Source of the DNA: Ceratodon purpureus | Lineage: Eukaryota > Streptophyta > Bryopsida > Pseudoditrichales > Ditrichaceae | Length of the DNA: 64,000 nucleotides | Assembly: GCA_014871385.1 (NCBI GenBank) | Contig: CM026423.1 | Span: forward strand, 17,163,690 to 17,227,689 | Reading direction: 5' to 3' | In this document: one piece after another, positions 16,705 to 27,800 of the stretch | How the letters are laid out: every line of letters begins with the position of its first letter | Numbering within the stretch: position 1 is the stretch's first letter | Notes under the pieces: model-generated | Databases searched by the model: none | What the model saw: only the letters and a program-made list of their open reading frames with translations | What the model was told of the DNA's origin: nothing | Translations under genes and position numbers: made by a program

Positions 16705-17718
16705 GTCTTTCGGTGTTTTTCACACTAATCTGGAATTGTGGTTTCTAACTGTTATGTCTACAGGGTTGTGAGCACATGGGTATGGGGCTTGTTGAGGTGA
16801 GTATGGCTGTTGTTGAGGATGTTTTTCATGTTTACGTTTGTGCTGGTATGGATTGTAGATCATGTTGATTCTCACATCAATCTCCGAGAGACATAGGTTA
16901 TGAGAAATGTTGTATTCTCTGTACCAAATCACTTGGACACTTTCCAATTTCTTGATAAAATTTTCAGGGATTTTTTATAAGTTTTGACTCATGGTTGCTT
17001 ATGGTTGGAAGGTTTTGGTGTACGATTGATAAATTGTCTCGAGAAATGTATGATTTTCTACAGTGACGACCTATGTTGTGACGTCCTGACTTAATATGAT
17101 CTGCCTAGGGTCAACTTCGGCTTAGCAACTAGTGAAGGTAAAAAATTTACTTGGTTGTGGACGTGGGATCCTAGTTGGCAATCGAGGTGGTAGTGGAGTA
17201 TGACATGGAATTATCCTCTTTGTCTTCACCCTTTTATCGTAGAACGTCCAAAAATGGCGCAGTGCCGAAAATGGAGCTCTAGTAACAACGTAGGGTGTTC
17301 AAGAAGTGATCAGTTAATGTGTAAAAAGTGACGGCTTGTAGCCGTGGATGAAAATTGCGCCATTTTTGAATGGAACTATACAAGTTTTGGATGACATCAT
17401 GCATTTCTACAAAAGTGGTATGGCACTTTTTGGATGATTGGCTGGGTAGTTATGAAACAAGTGTGGGGCATTTATTACTTGATGCAAAACAGATTATTCA
17501 GTAAAATTAGTTGGTTAATAGTGGCGGCCCACTCATAAACCAATGTGCGGCTTGTGCATTAATTTGAAATGTAGTGCACGATTTCCAATTGTTTTCCATT
17601 CATATTTCAATTCTCATTGTTCACAAATTGGTTTCGACTTGTTTAGTTTGATGAGTTTAGAGTGCTTCATTTGCAACTTCAGATTGTAAACAGATTATGC
17701 ACACACATAGTTTCAGAA

Positions 17719-20700
17719 ATGGAGGATGATGATAATCTGAGTTTTGATGAACTAATGTCACAGAGGGCAAGTAGCAGTAGACAAAGGCGAAGAGGTCGAA
17801 TTCCTTCACTGCGATTACATACTAGAGAGGAAGATGAGCATCGAGGACCACATGAGGAGATTCAATCTCAAGGGTACCCATCCATGTGTGGACAGCAACC
17901 GCAAGAGCCTGCACAATCCCAGAGCGAGGAAGCTGATGGACAGGAAGGGGAACATGAAGAACTCGGTGAGCAACCACTTAGTTGCCGTCAACAAGCTTCA
18001 ACACAGCACCAGGTACAGCATTTCTAACTTAAACCGGCAACTACTGCTATCAATTTACAAAACTATTAGGACACAGAGACTTCGTTCTGTAAATTTCTCA
18101 GAGAATACTCGACACTTCTTCTTCGCTGCTAGCATTAGAGTTCTGAAATAGCATTAAGCTAGTATCTGAAAGTATAAACTTTACCATATTTCAAGGGGTT
18201 GTCAATGATCGACTTGACGACACCAAAAGCGTTAGCGTAGAAAATCACAGAGCCTGGAAGCTCAGTTTGAACGCTCTCCAACATGGGCTTCAAGGCATTG
18301 TTGAAGTTGATGGCGTAGTCGTTCACCACTTGGACGCACTCCCCATTCTTGCTTCTTGTGGAGAGCACAGAAGGTGCGCAACCGATAGGCCCATCGTGGA
18401 AATAATGAATTTTCTCATCCCGAACCAGATGCTGTCTGCAAGCAGATTGTCATTTTTACAGCTTAGATTCATTGTCTCATAAGCGACGATCGAATCCTCG
18501 ACATGGTACTTAAAAACAGTGAGCAGGTGATTGAAGGTGATTGAATATTGTAACTGAACCTGCCCTCTGAAGAGAGTGATTAGTCGGTCTAGGTATTGAG
18601 GAAGTGTGTACATGTTTTTGGTGTTGGATGTGAGAGCCATGTGGTTGTTGATGTAATCGTTACCTCCAACTGTGAAAGAGTAGATGCCGTTGTGAATCAG
18701 TTCTTCCATCCCTTGTTGTCCAACCATCAGAGCAATCTGCTGCTTCGTTTTCGTGAAGTGATCAAATTGCTGTGACATTGTAACACGGCCGATCTGAACA
18801 CGAATCCACAGCGTTAGCCATCACAGCCAGGAAATACAACTCACATTGTCATATTCTTCTACGGTGGTCTTTTGAAGCAAACATAGTAATCAGAAGAAAA
18901 GAATGTCACAGGTTGATCCTTACAAAGACTTGGCCGGTTTCTTCTTGAATGCCTGCTCCAGCAGAAGCATAGTTCACCCCATGTAGAAGGTTACCTCCTG
19001 TAGCTTCTGGAGCAAGGACTGGAAGAGGGTAAGGAGTCCCGAGGTAGTCATCTGCACAGCAAGCAAAAAATGAATCCAACTGTAACAAAAGACATGTTGT
19101 AACTGAATCATTTAAGTTTCGGAATACATGCAAGTGCTATATCGACCCATATGATGCAAAAACAATGTAGCTGGGACTAAGGAATAATCATTCGAACTTA
19201 CTGACTAGATCTGGGATGATTTTTCCGTTGCAGAATCTGCCAGTAGCAACTTTATCAGCCCTGTCAATGCCGTAGGGCTTGTGGTCAGCAGAGGCCAGGG
19301 TGAAGAAGTAGTTGTTGTTGCCGACGTCCACGAGTGTAGCTGGTTACCTCCATGTTTAGGCTCTCCTGGCTCATTTGAGCCACTTCCGCGGTTGACAGGA
19401 TATTGACAGAAACTTAGAAATTTAGAAACTCTCTGCATGATTCGGAAAAAATATGCGCAGGTTAGTCAACAGAGGTAAAGTTGCACTTGCATCGAAATTT
19501 GTCAATGGAAAAAGACACGGATATGATGAATGACCACTCAAGTAATACTCATGTGATTTAAACGAAGCCTAAATGAAGGTCATTAAATCCAGTTTCTGGA
19601 TGTGAGGACTCACTCCCAGGGATGGTCACCGAGAAGAAGTGTGTCGTTCTCGTTGTCAACAAACACAATTTGCCAGCCCGAGTGATCCTCCATCAGACAA
19701 TCCAGTTGGAACATGTGTGCTAGTACTTTTTTGACTGCTAATTACTTCGATGTTCAGAATTAGAATTAAACTGATGTGTACCTAGGTTTATATTGCAGGT
19801 TGGTCGGATTCGACAGAGGGCAACATCTGGCTGTAGGGGTGGCGGTGAGCTCCGGAGCAGGGCGCCTGCATCAGCAAGCACCAGGCCGTTAAAACTCAAG
19901 AAGAACGGAAATTGGACAGATGCGCAGTTGGAGCAAGCACTATCAGCAATTCAAGACGATGGGCTGAAAATTCGGGAGGCTGCAAGAATGTTTAACATAC
20001 CTGCCACATCGCTCCGCAACCACTTGTGGGGGACGACATCTGGGCGACAGAGAGGTATACGCCCAACCTTGAAACAAGATGAAGAAGGGAAATTAGTGGA
20101 GTTCATCTTCAAAATGCAAGAGCTTGGTAATCCATTGACACCTACAGATTTGAGAGTTAAAGTAGCACAAGCTACTCAAGCGCGACAAACACCTTGGACT
20201 GCAAAGGGCCTACCTGGCAGCGGCTGGTTGAGAAGCTTTCGAAATCGGCATCCTGAACTTTCACTCCGTAAGTCTCAAGAGCTTGCAGTTGCCCGTGCTC
20301 GAGGCTTGTGTCCTGAAATTGTAGAAGGCTTTTATGCTAATCTAGAATACCTGTACTCAACTCACAATTATCCACAGTCCCATATCTGGAACTGTGACGA
20401 GTCTGGTGTCCAAGGGGCAAAGAACGGTGGAGCAATGGTCTTGGCAAAGAAGGGCAGCAAGTTAGTGAATTCCATCACACCTGATCAAAGGGAGCACATT
20501 TCAGTACTTTCATGTATCAACGCAGCAGGTGGAAAGATTCCCAATTTTTACATTGTAAAGGGCAAAAATTTTACATCAAACGTGGTTGAGAGATGCGAAC
20601 CTGGAGCTCTCATGGGAGTTCAACACAATGCGTGGATGACGAAGTTCCTCTTTGAAAGCTGGATTGCTCACTTTCTGAAAAAATTGGAGGATGGTCCTGG

Positions 20701-23700
20701 GGTTTCACCTGTGAACAGGCATCTGCTCATAGTTGACGGCCACACATCACATGTTACAATGGAAGTCGCAAAAACTTGCATGCAACACGGCATTGACGTT
20801 ATAACTCTACCATCACACACGTCGCATGCTTTGCAACCTCTGGACAAGAGTTGCTTCGCACCTTTTAAAGCGGCATTTAGAAGGATCCGAGACAACTGGA
20901 TGAGGGGTCAAACAAACAAGAAGGTGGAGAAGACCTTACTGTGCGAGTGGACCGCTCAAGCTCTCGGACAGGCACTCACAGTAAACAACATCAAAGCAGG
21001 CTTCAGGCGGACAGGAATCTGGCCCCTCGACAAGGGCGCGTTGGCAGGGGATATGGGCCCATCGGCTAATTTCCAAGCTGGAGCTGAAGAGGGATCCTCC
21101 GCCTCTGATGGAGACGACAGCGAGCAAGGTGAGGACGATGAGCAGGTTGCAGCAATTGGAGCCAGAGGTAAGAAACTTGAAAACCTTGAAAAACTATATT
21201 AGTCCAGACGGCGTTAAGAGATCTGAATAACCAGTTTCTGTCACGAAGCTTTCTAAAGAACATAACTCAAAAAATGGCAATGATTGAAGGACCTGAATCT
21301 GACTTTTGGGGTAGAATGTTACAACACCTCTGGTTGTCGTCGGAATGGGGAGCATAGTTTCTGCGATCAGTACATCCCACCCAATCTATCAGCATGCATG
21401 TAATTAAACACCGTTCTTTCACTCCGACTTCAAAGCCGCATTGAAGTACTTAGCGGATTTTATTACAGATACATGTAACATTATTTGTAATTTAATCTTA
21501 TTAGTTGTGTGAGACTAACGGGACTCTTCTACTTGACAGTCAATGAATAACATATTATTAAACAGTTCATCAACGACAGCATGAAAGAATGACACAGATA
21601 GTGAAACCAGCAATTGAACCAGCAGGAGAGAAAAGAAGTCAACTTCGACCTGTGAATCTAGAGTCATTATAGAGGGTGACTATAGAACCATTGTGACTTG
21701 GTTGAAATGTAGTGTACAAACGAAACAAAGACGCAACTAATTGAAATTAAACATACCGGTACAGAGAGGGCTGGCCATCCAAGAAAATTTCCAGCGACTT
21801 GGAATCTACAGTAGCATACTCGTCAGAATCTGCATTTGAAAGGGTCTCTGTGACCCTTTCTTCGCGGATCACCTTCTGACGTTTAGCGTTGTTGTCATAG
21901 ATCAGTTCAGTGTTTCCACCGATCAATTCGGTATTTCCACCAGGCTCTGCACTGAGAGTCTCATGCTGCCTACTCCGTTTAGATGTCCGCTTGATTTCAG
22001 CGACAGGTGACTCGTCAAGGTCGATAGGGATATGAGCGCTTGCGCCTACTAATGAAGTTCCCGCCTTCGGTGGTGAGGCGGGTGGTGTAGCTACAGAAGC
22101 CTGGCACAGACAGTAGCGTTATCGATAAGTGAAACTAAATCAACTCTAACAAACGGTATGTACAAGAAATAGAGCGGCGTAAAAAGTGCTATTCAAGCAA
22201 TCTATCATACTGGAGTTGAACTTGAAAGAAAACAAAAATTTAATAGCCATACTCAAGGAGTCTAATTAAGTGCATCCAGATCAAAACTACAGTAGCATAC
22301 TCGTCAGAATCTGCATTTGAAGCCTTTAAAACACAGGCACCTGCATATTCACGAGAACCCTAAGTCTTAGTAACCAAAACCATGAGGTGGCCCAGAATCG
22401 ATTACTGAATTCCAGAGGAAGAATCTGGCCAGATATTAGAAGCAGTTGTGACGTAGATATTCAGACCTTCTAGTAGTAGCCCCTCAAAAATACTGCCACT
22501 CTCGCAAGCCTCAAGGTAAATCACCTGCAGCATTTAATCAAAAACCATCATATGTTAGTAAGTCTTATTCACCTGCTGATACATGAATATGAGAATAAAT
22601 AAAATTAGGTCAGAGCACAATAACGTGATACAGAAGAAAGAATATGAAGTGATTCTATTACAAATTCTTTGTAGGTTCCAGCTGCAGCCTTCTCCTTCAG
22701 AGTGTCCACAAAGTCATCTGCATACAAGTTGGGATAGGTGGGCATACCTGTTGGCAGAAATACCAAAGCGCAGTTAGTATCGAACTTGGACACTAATTTT
22801 TAGTGGTCCACATATGAAATAGAAGTAGCATTTCTTCACTTTTCAGGGTCCACAAATGCAGGTATTACCTGCAAAATCCAGAATCCCCAGTTCGTGTATA
22901 TGTGTGATACATGATGTTCGATGAGAATCCAAGCTGTATTCGAACACTTCACGTGGTTGAAGATATGTCGGTCGGCTACTCATCGTGAATGCTTACATCC
23001 AGAGTATCCTACGTGATTAATTCATAGGTGTTTTAGCATGTGTCTTTGATCCATTTCGGTTGCCATTCGATACTCTGTTTCCGATTGGTTGGGTAATCGA
23101 TGCGTCTAATATCGAAATTAACGCACTGGCATCGATGGAGTGTTGAAACATGGTTGGACTTTTATGTCTTTTCATGAATTGGGTCGAATGAAACAAAAAC
23201 TTAGGGCACTACTAATTACTTCTGACTGCTAATTACTTCGATGTTAACTGCAAAAATGACAATAACGACGGCTGCAGCAAAGCAGGCTCTGCGCAAATCC
23301 TAACATGTGACGACTGAGGGTTTGGGATGGGGTTTAGGTACCGGCACAGCAGGCAACGCTTTTGCTGCGGGAGACTTCGGTGAGGGCCCATCTGCAGCAG
23401 CGAGCAATGACGTCAATGCCAATGTAGAGCAAGATCGAGAACCTAGGTACTATGTGAATGTTCCTAATGCAGAGGAAAGTACTTACGAAGTGGAAGACAG
23501 GGCTGTGAACATTGATCCAGATTTTGAGTCGACCCTGCAAGAGCGAAATGAAGATCAGAATTTCAGCTCATTTCTAGCCCTTCCAGAGGTTATTCCAGCT
23601 CGAAAAAGAAAGCGTCAGCAACCACTATTGGATTTCACAAAATCCCATATCTTGACCTCAGAAGACTACATCTCTGCATGTGAGCAACTTCTAGCAAAGC

Positions 23701-24335
23701 GACAAGAGAATGAAGAAGCAGCAAAGCGCAAAGCTGAAGAGAGAGCTGCAAACAAAGAAACTCGAAGGAGAGAAAAAGAGGAGCGCATCGCAGCTGTGAA
23801 TCAAAGGAAGGCTGAACGTGCAGCCAAGCGGCTGGAAAAGGAGCGCCTTCAAGCTGAGAGGAGGGCTGCGGGGGGAGGACGAGGAAGGCGGCACAACCCA
23901 CAAAGCAACCTTGCCGGGAGCAGCACCTTCGCAGGGAGCTGTGCGTCGCTACAGAACCCTACAGGGGCGGAGGGATGGGACGCCAGAGCAGCGGAGATGA
24001 TACAAGGTGGCGGGCCGCAGGGGGTTTGGGGCAGCGGCACTACAGCTGAGCTGATGTGCAACGCCGCAGCAGGCAGATGTGCAACCAACTCCGCAGTAGA
24101 TTTGCAACGAGGAGCAGGCACAGCATTCTCCACCTTCGGCAGAGATGTACAACGTCCAGCCCACCTCCACCCACACATGTCGCATGCAACCTCATCAACT
24201 CCATTCCGACCACCCACTTCAAATGTGTGGCCGTCTCCACCACCCATGTTCTACAATCCGATGCTTATGACTCCCTTCTTCCCCCCCACAACGGCACCCT
24301 TCACTGGATCTGAAAGCAACGGTAACCCAAGATAG
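17719..24335 (+). CDS. pogo/Tigger-like transposase (HTH-psq, CENP-B HTH, DDE_1)
   Basis: Model: exons 17719-18012, 19799-21167 and 23338-24335, about 886 residues. Introns are GT-AG with matching phases (phase 0, then phase 1; donors CAG|GTACAG and GAG|GTAAGA, acceptors TATATTGCAG and GGGGTTTAG). Residues 1-98 are acidic and Gln-rich. A psq-type helix-turn-helix spans about 137-176 ([20 protein letters not shown]) and a CENP-B type HTH about 193-266. The DDE nuclease has D298 (WNCDESG), D411 (LIVDGHTSH) and D447 (LQPLDKS). The C-terminus has a basic stretch ([11 protein letters not shown], about 644) and a Lys/Glu/Arg coiled coil (about 664-735). Known role: binds the element ends and moves it by cut and paste at TA. 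No stop or frame break was found in the exons, so it may be active. The exact first exon is the least certain part. Confidence 0.8.
18159..19345 (-). pseudogene. GDSL esterase/lipase gene fragment captured in transposase intron 1
   Basis: Three exons in antisense, about 19345-19202, 19051-18924 and 18793-18159, keep their GT-AG introns, so the source was genomic DNA. Seen: [22 protein letters not shown] near the N-terminus, then [20 protein letters not shown] and [17 protein letters not shown], then block [11 protein letters not shown], then [10 protein letters not shown] followed by [11 protein letters not shown]. Known family: SGNH/GDSL plant extracellular esterases with catalytic Ser in FGDS-L. 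Broken: the FGDS Ser motif just before LVDVGNNN is lost (only TSYT remains), a one-base deletion precedes GPIGC, and no C-terminal Asp-His block was found. It cannot make a working enzyme. Confidence 0.87.
19614..19734 (-). pseudogene. Auxin response factor PB1 exon captured in transposase intron 1
   Basis: A single 121 bp exon in antisense, bounded by an AG acceptor (AATTAGCAG) and GTGAGT donor, with 39 full codons and split codons at both ends. It encodes VLAHMFQL followed by a segment containing [18 protein letters not shown] and HPWE, the middle of the C-terminal PB1 (AUX/IAA) domain of ARF transcription factors, and it breaks off in the codon after DHPW where plant ARF genes usually have an intron. 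Known role of the source: dimerisation of ARF and Aux/IAA proteins in auxin response. No other ARF exon is nearby, so this is an isolated piece. Confidence 0.82.
21757..22100 (-). pseudogene. Unidentified gene exon captured in transposase intron 2
   Basis: A 344 bp antisense exon, open throughout, between an AG acceptor (TGTGCCAG) and a GTATGT donor. The encoded 114-odd residues begin [19 protein letters not shown], include [20 protein letters not shown] and [12 protein letters not shown], and look like a disordered Ser/Pro/Glu/Lys-rich linker of a nuclear protein. I do not recognise the family. Context (next to the legumain pieces, same strand, intact splice edges) suggests another host gene piece taken up by the transposon. 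A 35-bp part of it (21806-21840) is repeated at 22287-22321. Confidence 0.55.
22405..22747 (-). pseudogene. Legumain (vacuolar processing enzyme) gene fragment captured in transposase intron 2
   Basis: Two antisense exons. The first, 22747-22662, encodes [20 protein letters not shown] and GTYKEF. The second starts at 22524 and encodes [15 protein letters not shown] followed by [10 protein letters not shown]. They are joined by a GTAATA...CTGCAG intron that puts the reading frames together ([11 protein letters not shown]). The Cys in EACESGS is the catalytic Cys of family C13 legumains; the DHG segment with the catalytic His is not found upstream. After TTASN the sequence departs from the family and stops (SSSGIQ then TAA). 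It is therefore a short, non-functional genomic fragment of a vacuolar Asn-specific protease gene. Confidence 0.85.
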
Positions 24336-24843
24336 AATAAGCAAAAAAAGCGCGCCAATGTTGCTTGCCAGCAAGGTCATTCCTGAATTTTTGGTGCACC
24401 ATGATAGTCAACAGATCGTGCTCTTGCATGTGGCTAGGTGCACATCATGGGAACAAAAAGGAGTTCTAATAGGACAATAATGTTCTCTACATGGGAACTA
24501 AATGCTTACTTCAAGACTCCTTTTTAGCACAAAGGGAGTTCTTCTCCCTTAGATTTAGGATCTCGTTTGTTCTTTTCCAGTGAGTCATTTGCTCCATTTT
24601 GGAACTAGTTTTGTCTTCTACCTAAACTCTCTCTTATTGCTTACGCATGGACCCTATGCACCACATGTGGGACTCTACTACCTTTCCTTCTTTTAATTGT
24701 AGATAATTCATCCTTTGCTCAAAAAATTCAATTCTTGAACCACTTGACTCCTTGGTGCCTTGCTCATCAACTAAAATTGCTACAACGCCTAAAACTCACT
24801 CAGATTCTCCATGCTGAAATTTGCGCCATTATTGGACGCTCTA

Positions 24844-27800
24844 CTATACATGTGATTTAGTACAAAATAAAAGTGTGGGACTACCGTCAGCCCTATGTTT
24901 CCAAGCATTAGGAACTTGCTCCATCCCGTCCTCCCCATATTCTCTATCGTCCGTTCTTTGTTTCCATCCATTGGGAATGTGTTCCCGATCGTCCGTCCCT
25001 TTGTTCCTTGTCGTCCACCTCAATTTGACCCTTTCAGCTTGCAGGGGCTATATCTTCCTCATTTTTTGCCCGTTTCTAGAGTTTGACAACATTTTCGACG
25101 TCTACATTTTATGAGGATGTCTAAAATGTTCTTGAAATCAAGATTTAGATCCAAAATAAGGCTGTTAGATTCTTTGAAAGTTGTTGTCCGCCTCCCTTGT
25201 TCCTTGCCTTCCGCTCCTTGTTCCCAAGCATTGAGAACGTATTCCTTGTAAATTTTTCTTTACATTTTCTGTAATTTGTTGACATGTCAACACATGTAGA
25301 AATCTATTATCCTATGTTTTCAAATTGGAGTAATGTAATTACATCCAAAATCTGGTTATTTTTTAATTCGTCACAATAAAGGCAAGATAAGTCATAATGT
25401 GGTGATGAATACTTGTCGTGACGTCACGACATTATAATGGAAATGGCATCCGTCACGATTTGACATTTAGTAGCCAAGGTCAAACAAGTATTATTAACAG
25501 CTTGTAGGAAGAAACAGAAGAATCTTCCAAAGATGATAATGGTTGTATGAATAAAGAAGAAGATTCATCAATCAATAGACATTCCAAATAAACAAGAAGA
25601 AATGAACAACAATTTATTGTTGTCAAGAATCAAGTGAAAAAAGGTTCTAGTACGCCTCAAGTTCATGAAACTTCTTTTAGAGTTGCAATTCAATGAATGA
25701 AAATATTATCAATTCTACATCCAATTAAGATTAAAAAATTGTATTCAACGCGGATGGATACATGTGCAATTCAATGAATGAAAATATTATCAATTCTACA
25801 CCCAATTAAGATTAAAAAATTGTATTCAACGCGGATGGATACATGTGCAAGAACAAGGTATTACCGTATTACACCATTTGTAATGGATTTTATATTAAAA
25901 GATAATAAGTAGGGCTAATACTTCTAATCCTACTTATAAATATGTACGTGTTAAAAGGCTTAGAAGTAGAAGTATTACACCATCAGAAAAATATCTATTA
26001 CTATAGAAAATGGTTTCTTTATGGATCGTGCTAGAGTAATAAATGAAGGTACTGGCAATATGTAGTTGATCTTCTTCAATATGCAAAATTAAACTGGATT
26101 TTTGGTTTATCACTTATATCTCTAGACAAATATTCTCAAATTCCATAAAAGATAGAATTATATAGGATAGAAATATGTATATTAATATTTAGAATTATTT
26201 ACAATAAGTGAATTTAAAAAATTTAAATTCAACTGAAAAATAGAGTTGTCAAGCTACAATTCATTAGTATACAATTCATTAGTTTATTGCATTAATGCTA
26301 ACCTATTTAGATAAAGAAAATGATGTCTGTGAATAAAATATTTAGAATATTTAAGTGCATATGGTCCTATGGACTTTGAATGAAACAAATGACGTTATTT
26401 GACATATATGTTTATAAAAGAAATATCTTAAAAGAATAATAATTAGCGTTAAAATGTAGTAACATTAATTAATCACATAAGATATGATATTTTCATTGTT
26501 CTTTTCAAAAGTACACCTTCTTTGGACCAGTTTTTATATATCAAATATTATTTTATATGAAAAAAAACTCATTTTCAAATTCTTTAAATTCATTAATAAA
26601 ATTGAATCACAATCTAAATATTTAAAAGAAATCATTTTGAGATAATAGCTTTTATGCTCTCATTTTTTAATGTCTTATGATGTTTTCACTTAAAACTTAG
26701 TTTAAATGAAGTTCATATAAAAATCTTTAAATATAAAAATGATTGTCAAGCTACTATTATTATATTTGATGTAAATATGTCTTAAAAACTTTTTAATAAA
26801 TAATATTAAGGAGAAGTATTTCTTTTTTAATGTGGTATTTTTTAACTTTTCAAAGTCTTTTAAAAGTATTCTAGAATATTTATTAGATATTTTATAGAAT
26901 CACTAAATTACTTTTTAAGTTACTGTAGTATTCAATTTTAAAATTAATTTAAAACTCTATAAATTTGTTAAACCTCCAAAAATTACTATGTTATTCTATC
27001 ATGAAATGCTTCAATCTTATTTGATTGTCAATAAAGCTTCTTCTATTTTTTTCCTTTTATTATTCAAAAATAAATTAAATTTTTTATATTAAATATTTAA
27101 TCAGATAAGAAATAAAACAATTTACATGATAACTTTATAATTATTTTTTTATATGCTTAGTTATCTATCATTTATATATTAATACTTGCATACCGTGATG
27201 AAAATGTAATTTAGTCAATAAGATTTATGGTATATGGTAAATTTCTATATTGCTTAAAAACGCAATTAATACTATTATGAAAGATGGGATTAAAGTGAGA
27301 AACACCATATTAATTTTTAACATTGTATTTCCTTATTGTAGAGAACCTCTTATAAGTGGCGCAGTTAATGTGCCTTTAGTAGTGCTACAAATGCAATTAG
27401 ACTTCGTGGATATTTTCAATTGTATTCCCTAATAAACTTGGCGCCTAGAAAAAAAACGACGGAGCCCACAGAATCCCATTCTGTAAGAGTCTCTAGGAGT
27501 GCTCAGAGAAGACACGTCATGAGTAGGTCATATTCACAAATCCAAGAGCTCATCGTTCAAAGGCGACCACTAGCGCAGCGGTTCTTCATCAAATTTTATT
27601 ACTCTTTGAGAAATAAAATTGATGGTGCAAGACCATGTAACTCATTTTAAAACTACTTAAGCCATTGCTTAGGTTCACCTTGAGTATTATTTAATAAACA
27701 ATTTTGTTAAGTTTGTGAAAAACCTCAAATATAAAACCATTAGTTATTCTCTTTCAATCTAATTATAAAAAATGTCATCAATATGAAATTGAAAAAAACA

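Follow-up and report, generated by a model that had tools for sequence, protein, structure and literature searches.

Serial, mostly antisense capture of host gene fragments in the transposase introns of a Fot-like pogo transposon of the moss Ceratodon purpureus

In a 64,000-nucleotide stretch of Ceratodon purpureus DNA, hereafter the window (assembly GCA_014871385.1, 362.5 Mb in 151 contigs; contig CM026423.1, here C3, positions 17163690-17227689), we analysed a 7610-bp transposon of the pogo superfamily whose intact transposase gene contains two introns filled largely with pieces of host genes. Comparison of its sequence with sister copies and donor loci makes it likely that this is a recently active Fot-like element whose transposase introns serve as a cargo bay, filled by break repair with template switching. 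Gene capture by transposons with terminal inverted repeats (TIRs), including Tigger and transposase-bearing CACTA elements, is already known; what is new is that captures, mostly in antisense, followed one another and nested within introns of a pogo transposase gene that remained intact. The element and its gene are laid out as follows.

17235..17236, unstranded: TA target duplication, left
17237..24846, plus strand: pogo-superfamily (Fot-like) transposon, 7610 bp, delimited by comparison with other copies
17237..17261, plus strand: left TIR, 25 bp
17719..18012, plus strand: transposase exon 1
18013..19798, plus strand: transposase intron 1, 1786 bp, of which 1581 bp (89%) align to host loci
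19799..21167, plus strand: transposase exon 2, with HTH_psq, HTH_Tnp_Tc5 and DDE_1 (DD35D)
21168..23337, plus strand: transposase intron 2, 2170 bp, of which 1937 bp (89%) align to host loci
23338..24335, plus strand: transposase exon 3
24822..24846, minus strand: right TIR, 25 bp, matching the left one at 22 of 25 positions
24847..24848, unstranded: TA target duplication, right

All captures that could be traced sit within the two transposase introns, and the pieces carried by the window copy (W) are these.

18178..18540, minus strand, antisense to the transposase: GDSL esterase piece of the type found at C13:5914, a chimeric host locus
18540 to about 18724: change to a second GDSL donor, with two mixed sites
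18724..19336, minus strand: GDSL patch from the second donor, C2:3328075-3329238 (C2:3.328), 99.67% over 613 bp
19337..19723, minus strand: probable ARF PB1 exon piece, taken together with GDSL from C13:5914
19721..19758, minus strand: 38-bp remnant of an older capture from an SPX-domain gene (C7:7.83)
21180..21804, minus strand: old intron-2 capture from the amidase gene C1:2.269, consisting of two parts and lacking the amidase exon stretch
21803..21840, unstranded: flanking duplication of the recipient, copy 1, with its partner at 22284-22321
21842..22287, minus strand, antisense: 446 bp, 100% to C4:14701230-14701675 (C4:14.70), exon of a conserved unnamed protein
22284..22321, unstranded: flanking duplication of the recipient, copy 2
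22303..22402, unstranded: C2:26.47 piece, common to older copies
22435..22868, minus strand, antisense: legumain piece from C13:10448030-10448463 (C13:10.45), 96.6%
22878..22926, plus strand: 49-bp remnant of a C3:10.31 capture
22925..23212, plus strand: 288-bp C11:10.37 piece, 98.3%, whose donor lies downstream of a glyoxal oxidase gene
23220..23245, plus strand: 26-bp filler that nearly repeats 19729-19754 (intron 1, 3' end)

An earlier note, made from the letters of this DNA, had recognised parts of a GDSL esterase, an ARF PB1 exon, an unidentified exon and a legumain, and had proposed a search for their parents and for other copies with other cargo. All four pieces are present, the third being the 446-bp match to C4:14.70; parent loci for GDSL, ARF and legumain were found, as were copies with different cargo in the same genome. 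That inventory proved incomplete, as the amidase, C2:26.47, SPX, C3:10.31 and C11:10.37 pieces also lie inside; its reading of pieces from at least four host genes stands as to several unrelated genes, but GDSL and ARF form a single capture, having been joined beforehand in the host. By Pfam, the window's GDSL piece matches Lipase_GDSL at 4.8e-4 and its legumain piece matches Peptidase_C13 at 0.01, both below cut-off, and the donor exon cut by the legumain piece reaches 8.3e-26; the piece itself encodes EACESGS, whose Cys we take to be the catalytic one. The ARF exon of the window alone gave no ARF match in the Pfam search, its homologous locus L041 matches AUX_IAA at 0.0017 (below cut-off), and the exon, otherwise recognised by eye, is probably an ARF PB1 exon. 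No Pfam domain was found in the C4:14.70 protein, which has seven homologues, all unnamed.

To read the history of these pieces we compared 11 copies of the element, namely W and those designated C4a, C10a, C2, C11, C10b, C6a, C1, C5, C6b and C4b (C6b was assembled from two stretches about 23 kb apart and treated as one copy, and exon 3 of C1 is absent from the stretch fetched); the comparison leaves out relatives at 74-76% (L032-L034) as well as short fragments of the ends or the interior (L031, L046-L051). More distant relatives lie at C13:3.68 (75% identical), C10:8.05 and C6:26.57. Across the copies we counted 16 acquisitions from loci on eight chromosomes, often nested and in sets that differ among copies, and 14 of the 16 donor loci were fetched.

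SPX-domain gene C7:7.83: carried by C1, C6a and C10b, with remnants in C5 and C6b (58 bp) and in the five GDSL copies (38 bp)
IST1 gene C2:18.99, nested in the SPX piece: C1, C6a and C10b
GDSL and ARF, C13:5914: W, C4a, C10a, C2 and C11
GDSL patch, C2:3.328: W
Amidase gene, C1:2.27, intron 2: eight copies
C2:26.47, intron 2: six copies
C3:10.31, intron 2: eight copies
LIM-gene stretch C3:20.57: C11 and C4a, shortened in C10a and C2
LRR gene C9:6.397: C10a and C2, split in two by a receptor-kinase locus
Receptor-kinase locus C1:27.03: interrupts the C9:6.397 piece
C4:14.70: W only
Legumain, C13:10.45: W only
C11:10.37: W only
WD40 gene C2:12.76: C5 and C6b
C2:22.40: C5 and C6b, as three short matches of 48-108 bp at 80-90%
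C2:22.92: C6b only

Identity to the donors ranges from about 87% (C3:10.31, amidase and, in some copies, IST1) to 100% (C4:14.70). Pre-capture states are visible in sister copies, and the order of capture matches the exon-2 tree, which runs C4b; C6b, C5; C10b, C6a, C1; C11; W, C4a, (C10a, C2), with four of its 11 inner branches fully supported and four drawn open. In the most basal copy, C4b, the same measure gives intron lengths of 599 and 93 bp; none of the fetched donors matches this copy, its introns themselves not having been searched against the genome. C5 and C6b were considered as cargo-free copies and rejected, since both hold the WD40 gene piece and others. A 370-bp insertion lies within the captured ARF piece of C10a and C2 (L020 5654-6053, with the matching place in L021).

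The direction of transfer is read from the sequences as host to element, because in the donors the legumain and IST1 exons and the C4:14.70 open reading frame (ORF) continue past the captured edges, and because donor stretches unbroken in the host are split in the element by the next piece: C9:6.397 by C1:27.03, C7:7.83 by C2:18.99, C2:26.47 by C3:10.31, and C3:10.31 by C3:20.57, with some loss in three of these four stretches. The C13:5914 locus joins a GDSL piece, 94% identical to C2:3.328 over 2.3 kb, to an ARF piece, 86% identical to C10:13.66 over 0.76 kb. Each homology extends past the 1.2 kb present in the element, so the element took a ready-made GDSL-ARF chimera in one step. The possibility that C13:5914 is a relic of the element was rejected on the same ground, the homology continuing on both sides past the captured part. 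A count of GDSL, ARF, the unnamed exon and legumain as four captures was rejected because GDSL and ARF are one. The unplaced contig C55 (L036) is a 99.9% duplicate of the C13:5.914 Mb locus (L037 695-3718) over the 5.5 kb compared.

The sharing of cargo also bears on transposition-independent gap filling, in which old DNA gathers templated insertions at breaks and the introns are merely neutral places, made visible by sister copies. Gap filling is the main explanation given for single-copy Pack-TIRs in animals (PMC8277862), and the 37-38-bp duplication and the fillers described below are ordinary marks of break repair. We nevertheless consider it rather unlikely: 11 of the 16 acquisitions are shared by at least two copies that lie at different sites, which dates those captures before transposition; the four private to W, which itself lies on C3, derive from C2, C4, C11 and C13, none of them nearby, whereas the animal single-copy cases have a cis bias (PMC8277862). 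The one remaining acquisition is private to C6b.

Capture through template-switching repair inside a mobile element is further supported by the junctions, which were examined by eye for 12 donor pieces. Their edges are abrupt, and the sequence shared across them is little or short (for example GAATCC at the left edge of the C11:10.37 piece). A 37-38-bp stretch of the recipient is duplicated on either side of the C4:14.70 piece and is single in the sister copy C4a. Between q944 and q1771, the GDSL donors C13:5914 and C2:3.328 differ at 26 sites; W is of the C13:5914 type up to q1306, except at q1262 and q1302 (both also in C11), mixed from q1469 to q1548, and of the C2:3.328 type at 11 of 11 sites from q1603. 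Over q1490-2102, W is 99.67% identical to C2:3.328 (613 bp), the comparable part being 95.0% identical to C13:5914, and at q2102 the patch rejoins the ARF part by a non-homologous break. The patch restores 330 bp of GDSL sequence missing from the other four GDSL copies and from C13:5914. An 18-base motif of the 3' end of intron 1 is repeated in the right part of intron 2 (six copies). In our reading the duplication, the donor switch and the fillers were left by repair synthesis in which the template switched. Intron sequence remains between the exons of the GDSL piece, and the LIM piece comes from between LIM exons, so it was DNA that was copied and not spliced RNA.

By the mechanism we propose, breaks inside the element would be repaired by DNA synthesis that switches to unrelated templates, either by synthesis-dependent strand annealing or by a microhomology-mediated route. 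Repairs landing in exons, or leaving sense host exons in an intron, would be lost through breaking the transposase, antisense repairs in introns would be tolerated, and the cargo-bearing element would stay mobile with its transposase kept. With the cargo in the introns and the exons spared, capture would not require loss of the transposase; the case suggests that it need not yield a crippled element. Either gaps left by excision or ordinary breaks may have been the trigger. The excision model (abortive gap repair, or what is called FoSTeST), in which the gap is refilled from the sister chromatid and synthesis jumps to other templates, is a possibility we take seriously, at somewhat less than an even chance: internal DNA was lost along with the gains (the amidase exon stretch is gone, and C3:20.57 and C3:10.31 are trimmed), and multi-copy cargo fits FoSTeST as described (PMC8277862), but the traced breakpoints lie in introns and not near the ends, a pattern that selection or random breaks could explain.

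The junctions also speak to delivery of the pieces into the introns by other transposons such as Helitrons or Pack-MULEs. In its favour, the C13:5914 donor already combines pieces of two genes, something a Helitron could produce; by eye, however, neither terminal repeats nor regular target duplications were seen at the junctions of the 12 pieces, no dedicated search for ends having been run, and the one obvious transposon insertion among the copies (3.3 kb, in exon 1 of C10b, with an 8-bp duplication) looks quite different, so that we regard such delivery as very improbable. The earlier note's caution that the fragments might be separate later insertions with their own duplications holds in part: entry was stepwise and the C4:14.70 piece has its 37-38-bp duplication, but transposon ends were not seen at the junctions of the 12 pieces and shared pieces recur in copies at different sites. 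Hybrid elements, formed when neighbouring copies enclose host DNA, follow the tandem-insertion model described for Pack-CACTA (PMC13317346). The pieces here are internal, small, nested and drawn from eight chromosomes, for which a single bracketing event is insufficient, and blastn of the element against the donor stretches matched cargo only (a lone 25-bp end could be missed); we give this origin hardly any credence.

A bias in orientation is visible in the cargo. Host genes lie antisense to the transposase in all 10 events whose strand is given by an exon in or beside the piece (SPX, IST1, GDSL-ARF, amidase, LIM, LRR, receptor, C4:14.70, legumain and WD40; P = 0.002, post hoc). The strand of C4:14.70 was taken from its ORF with seven homologues and those of LIM and the receptor from flanking exons; the GDSL patch was omitted as not independent, and C2:26.47, C2:22.92 and C2:22.40 as having no assigned strand. 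Only IST1, LIM and the legumain donor exon are above the Pfam cut-off among the oriented donors. We read the antisense bias as selection against sense exons in an intron and not as directed capture.

The transposase itself, called intact from the start, bears that description out. The three exons of W splice in phase at canonical GT/AG sites into 886 amino acids with no internal stop, Pfam matches to DDE_1 (4.3e-24) and to HTH_psq and HTH_Tnp_Tc5 (9.1e-6 and 2.3e-6) are all above cut-off, and the catalytic D2-D3 spacing is 35 residues (DD35D). A protein database search with the exon-2 protein returned 219 relatives, the best at 82% identity over 87% of the query; the best 120 of the 219, aligned with the full 886 amino acids, gave 122 rows, of which 33 extend into exon 3 and five begin in exon 1, which supports the gene model. 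The whole gene is intact in four of the 11 copies (W, C4a, C10a and C2), C11 has one stop, and the remaining six show stops, frameshifts, missing parts or an insertion. Exon 2 of W, set against that of each other intact copy in turn, gives a ratio of nonsynonymous to synonymous substitution rates (dN/dS) of 0.30-0.34. The insertion in C10b (C10:13.98 Mb; L023 1281-4612) is 3.3 kb long, lies in exon 1, has the ends CAGGGTTGT/ACAACCCTG and an 8-bp duplication, and is presumably hAT-like.

Helitrons have 5'-TC...CTRR-3' ends without a duplication and Pack-MULEs have long TIRs with a 9-bp duplication; non-TIR MULEs with a Kaonashi Ulp1 domain keep a transposase. Membership of the element in the Helitrons or Pack-MULEs is ruled out by its 25-bp TIRs with a TA duplication. 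Its boundaries were set by comparison with other copies lying in unrelated flanks, to which TA adjoins; the TA-flanked element of 17242..24841 with 20-bp ends that had been proposed was right about the presence of paired ends, and its bounds fell 5 bp inside on each side, the true ends being 25 bp. The pairing of the two ends in other copies, also put forward for checking, was confirmed: a genome search with the end pattern gave 161 forward and 161 reverse places against 0 for a reversed control, and among the matches listed many pairs are about 307 bp long, the size of miniature inverted-repeat transposable elements (MITEs). One such MITE (L059, about 307 bp) and a 700-bp one (L060), the latter enlarged by about 400 bp of additional internal DNA, have about 40-48 bp of each element end. 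As to activity, the sequence shows intact frames, near-identical copies and a MITE with about 45 bp of each end in common with the putatively autonomous element.

The assignment to pogo holds and that to Tigger, which had been offered with it, does not. Fot and Fot-like elements are defined by HTH_psq with HTH_Tnp_Tc5 and DD35D, and by TIRs with a TA duplication in part of the family or a TAA or TAAA one, and Tigger by CENP-B_N plus HTH_Tnp_Tc5 or HTH_Tnp_Tc5 alone (PMC7386202). The moss element has DDE_1 with DD35D, HTH_psq together with HTH_Tnp_Tc5, and 25-bp TIRs with a TA duplication, and CENP-B_N was unmatched in the Pfam search, which rules out Tigger; it is Fot-like by this domain signature. 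It is likewise longer, at 7.6 kb, than the published pogo elements of 1.2-5.2 kb (PMC7386202).

Several points weigh against the reading of an active element filled by template-switching repair. Its mobility, transcription and splicing are predictions from sequence, and dN/dS in exon 2 is 0.67-1.04 among C4a, C10a and C2 themselves, with very few changes. The capture rate was taken from the transposase introns alone and may be ordinary for introns of this genome, and the captures private to W (four) and C6b (one) could be later repairs in situ. The GDSL donor change is not clean, q1482 and q1548 being of the first type after the change begins. The legumain piece is private to W and yet differs by 3.4% from the only close donor locus examined, more than expected for a private piece if that locus is the true source. 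The antisense count becomes 10 of 12 (P = 0.039, post hoc) when C3:10.31 and C11:10.37 are included, whose strand comes from a nearby gene only and which lie near genes that would be sense, and six oriented donors fall below the Pfam cut-off (GDSL 4.8e-4, amidase 2e-4, WD40 0.0018, kinase 0.0067, SPX 0.035 and LRR 0.04). Two of the 16 donors (C2:22.40 and C2:22.92) are known from the match table alone, and for them the host-to-element direction is presumed. The C4:14.70 piece adjoining the legumain piece is, unlike it, 100% identical to its donor.

Set against known systems, a "new type of capture vehicle", as the element had been styled, is too strong: Pack-Tigger1 in gibbon (PMC8277862), CACTA elements with transposase domains and captured fragments (PMC8978399) and Pack-Mariner in rice (PMC8903248) have been described. 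Like the plant Pack-TYPE elements (Pack-MULE, Pack-CACTA and Pack-Mariner; PMC8903248), the moss element is a TIR transposon with host gene fragments between its TIRs and their parents elsewhere in the genome; the Pack-TYPE definition includes absence of transposase and hence non-autonomy (PMC8903248), whereas here a three-exon gene, intact in four of 11 copies including W, houses the cargo in its own introns. Animal Pack-TIRs (Pack-Tigger1, Ssk-FB4) are likewise TcMariner-type elements with host DNA, attributed to gap filling or fork switching, but are mostly single-copy and near the parent, and the available text of that source makes no mention of serial nested captures in an intact transposase gene (PMC8277862). 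The transposase-bearing CACTA elements share capture by an element that still encodes its transposase; they belong to another superfamily, their AP2 fragments lie in the 5' region outside the coding sequence, and a succession of captures goes unmentioned in the part available (PMC8978399). KI-MULE elements also hold a captured gene part, the Kaonashi Ulp1 domain of non-TIR MULEs, in another superfamily and, in the part available, without mention of a succession of captures (PMC13317346). Land-plant pogo elements are reported only as Lemi of eudicots (PMC7386202) and as a Selaginella clade and a dicot clade (PMC7325037). Among the titles listed from an open-licence library, which lacks most subscription papers, none concerned capture of genes by pogo elements of plants or mosses, or cargo in transposase introns; capture by plant and animal TIR elements and land-plant pogo were surveyed across PMC8903248, PMC8277862, PMC8978399, PMC7386202, PMC7325037, PMC10619864 and PMC13317346.

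According to a 2026 review, DNA transposons may still have an undiscovered way of bringing unlinked gene fragments in between their ends (PMC13317346). That the transposase introns of an autonomous pogo element, as a capture bay filled by serial template switching to unlinked host genes, are a fossil record of this missing transduplication mechanism, with antisense cargo kept by selection, we regard as evenly poised. A single genome here contains the donors, several pre-capture states, copies after capture and a tree of the transposase, which allows the order and junctions of the captures to be read directly and models to be compared. If retention is antisense-biased, the cargo could yield antisense RNA to host genes. 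If the proposed mechanism is true, gene capture would arise routinely from an active DNA transposon with introns, and would have been missed wherever annotation discards any element with a transposase match. The relatives L032, L033 and L034 are more distant, at 74-76% in exon 2, and the first intron of L033 is about 1.2 kb long.

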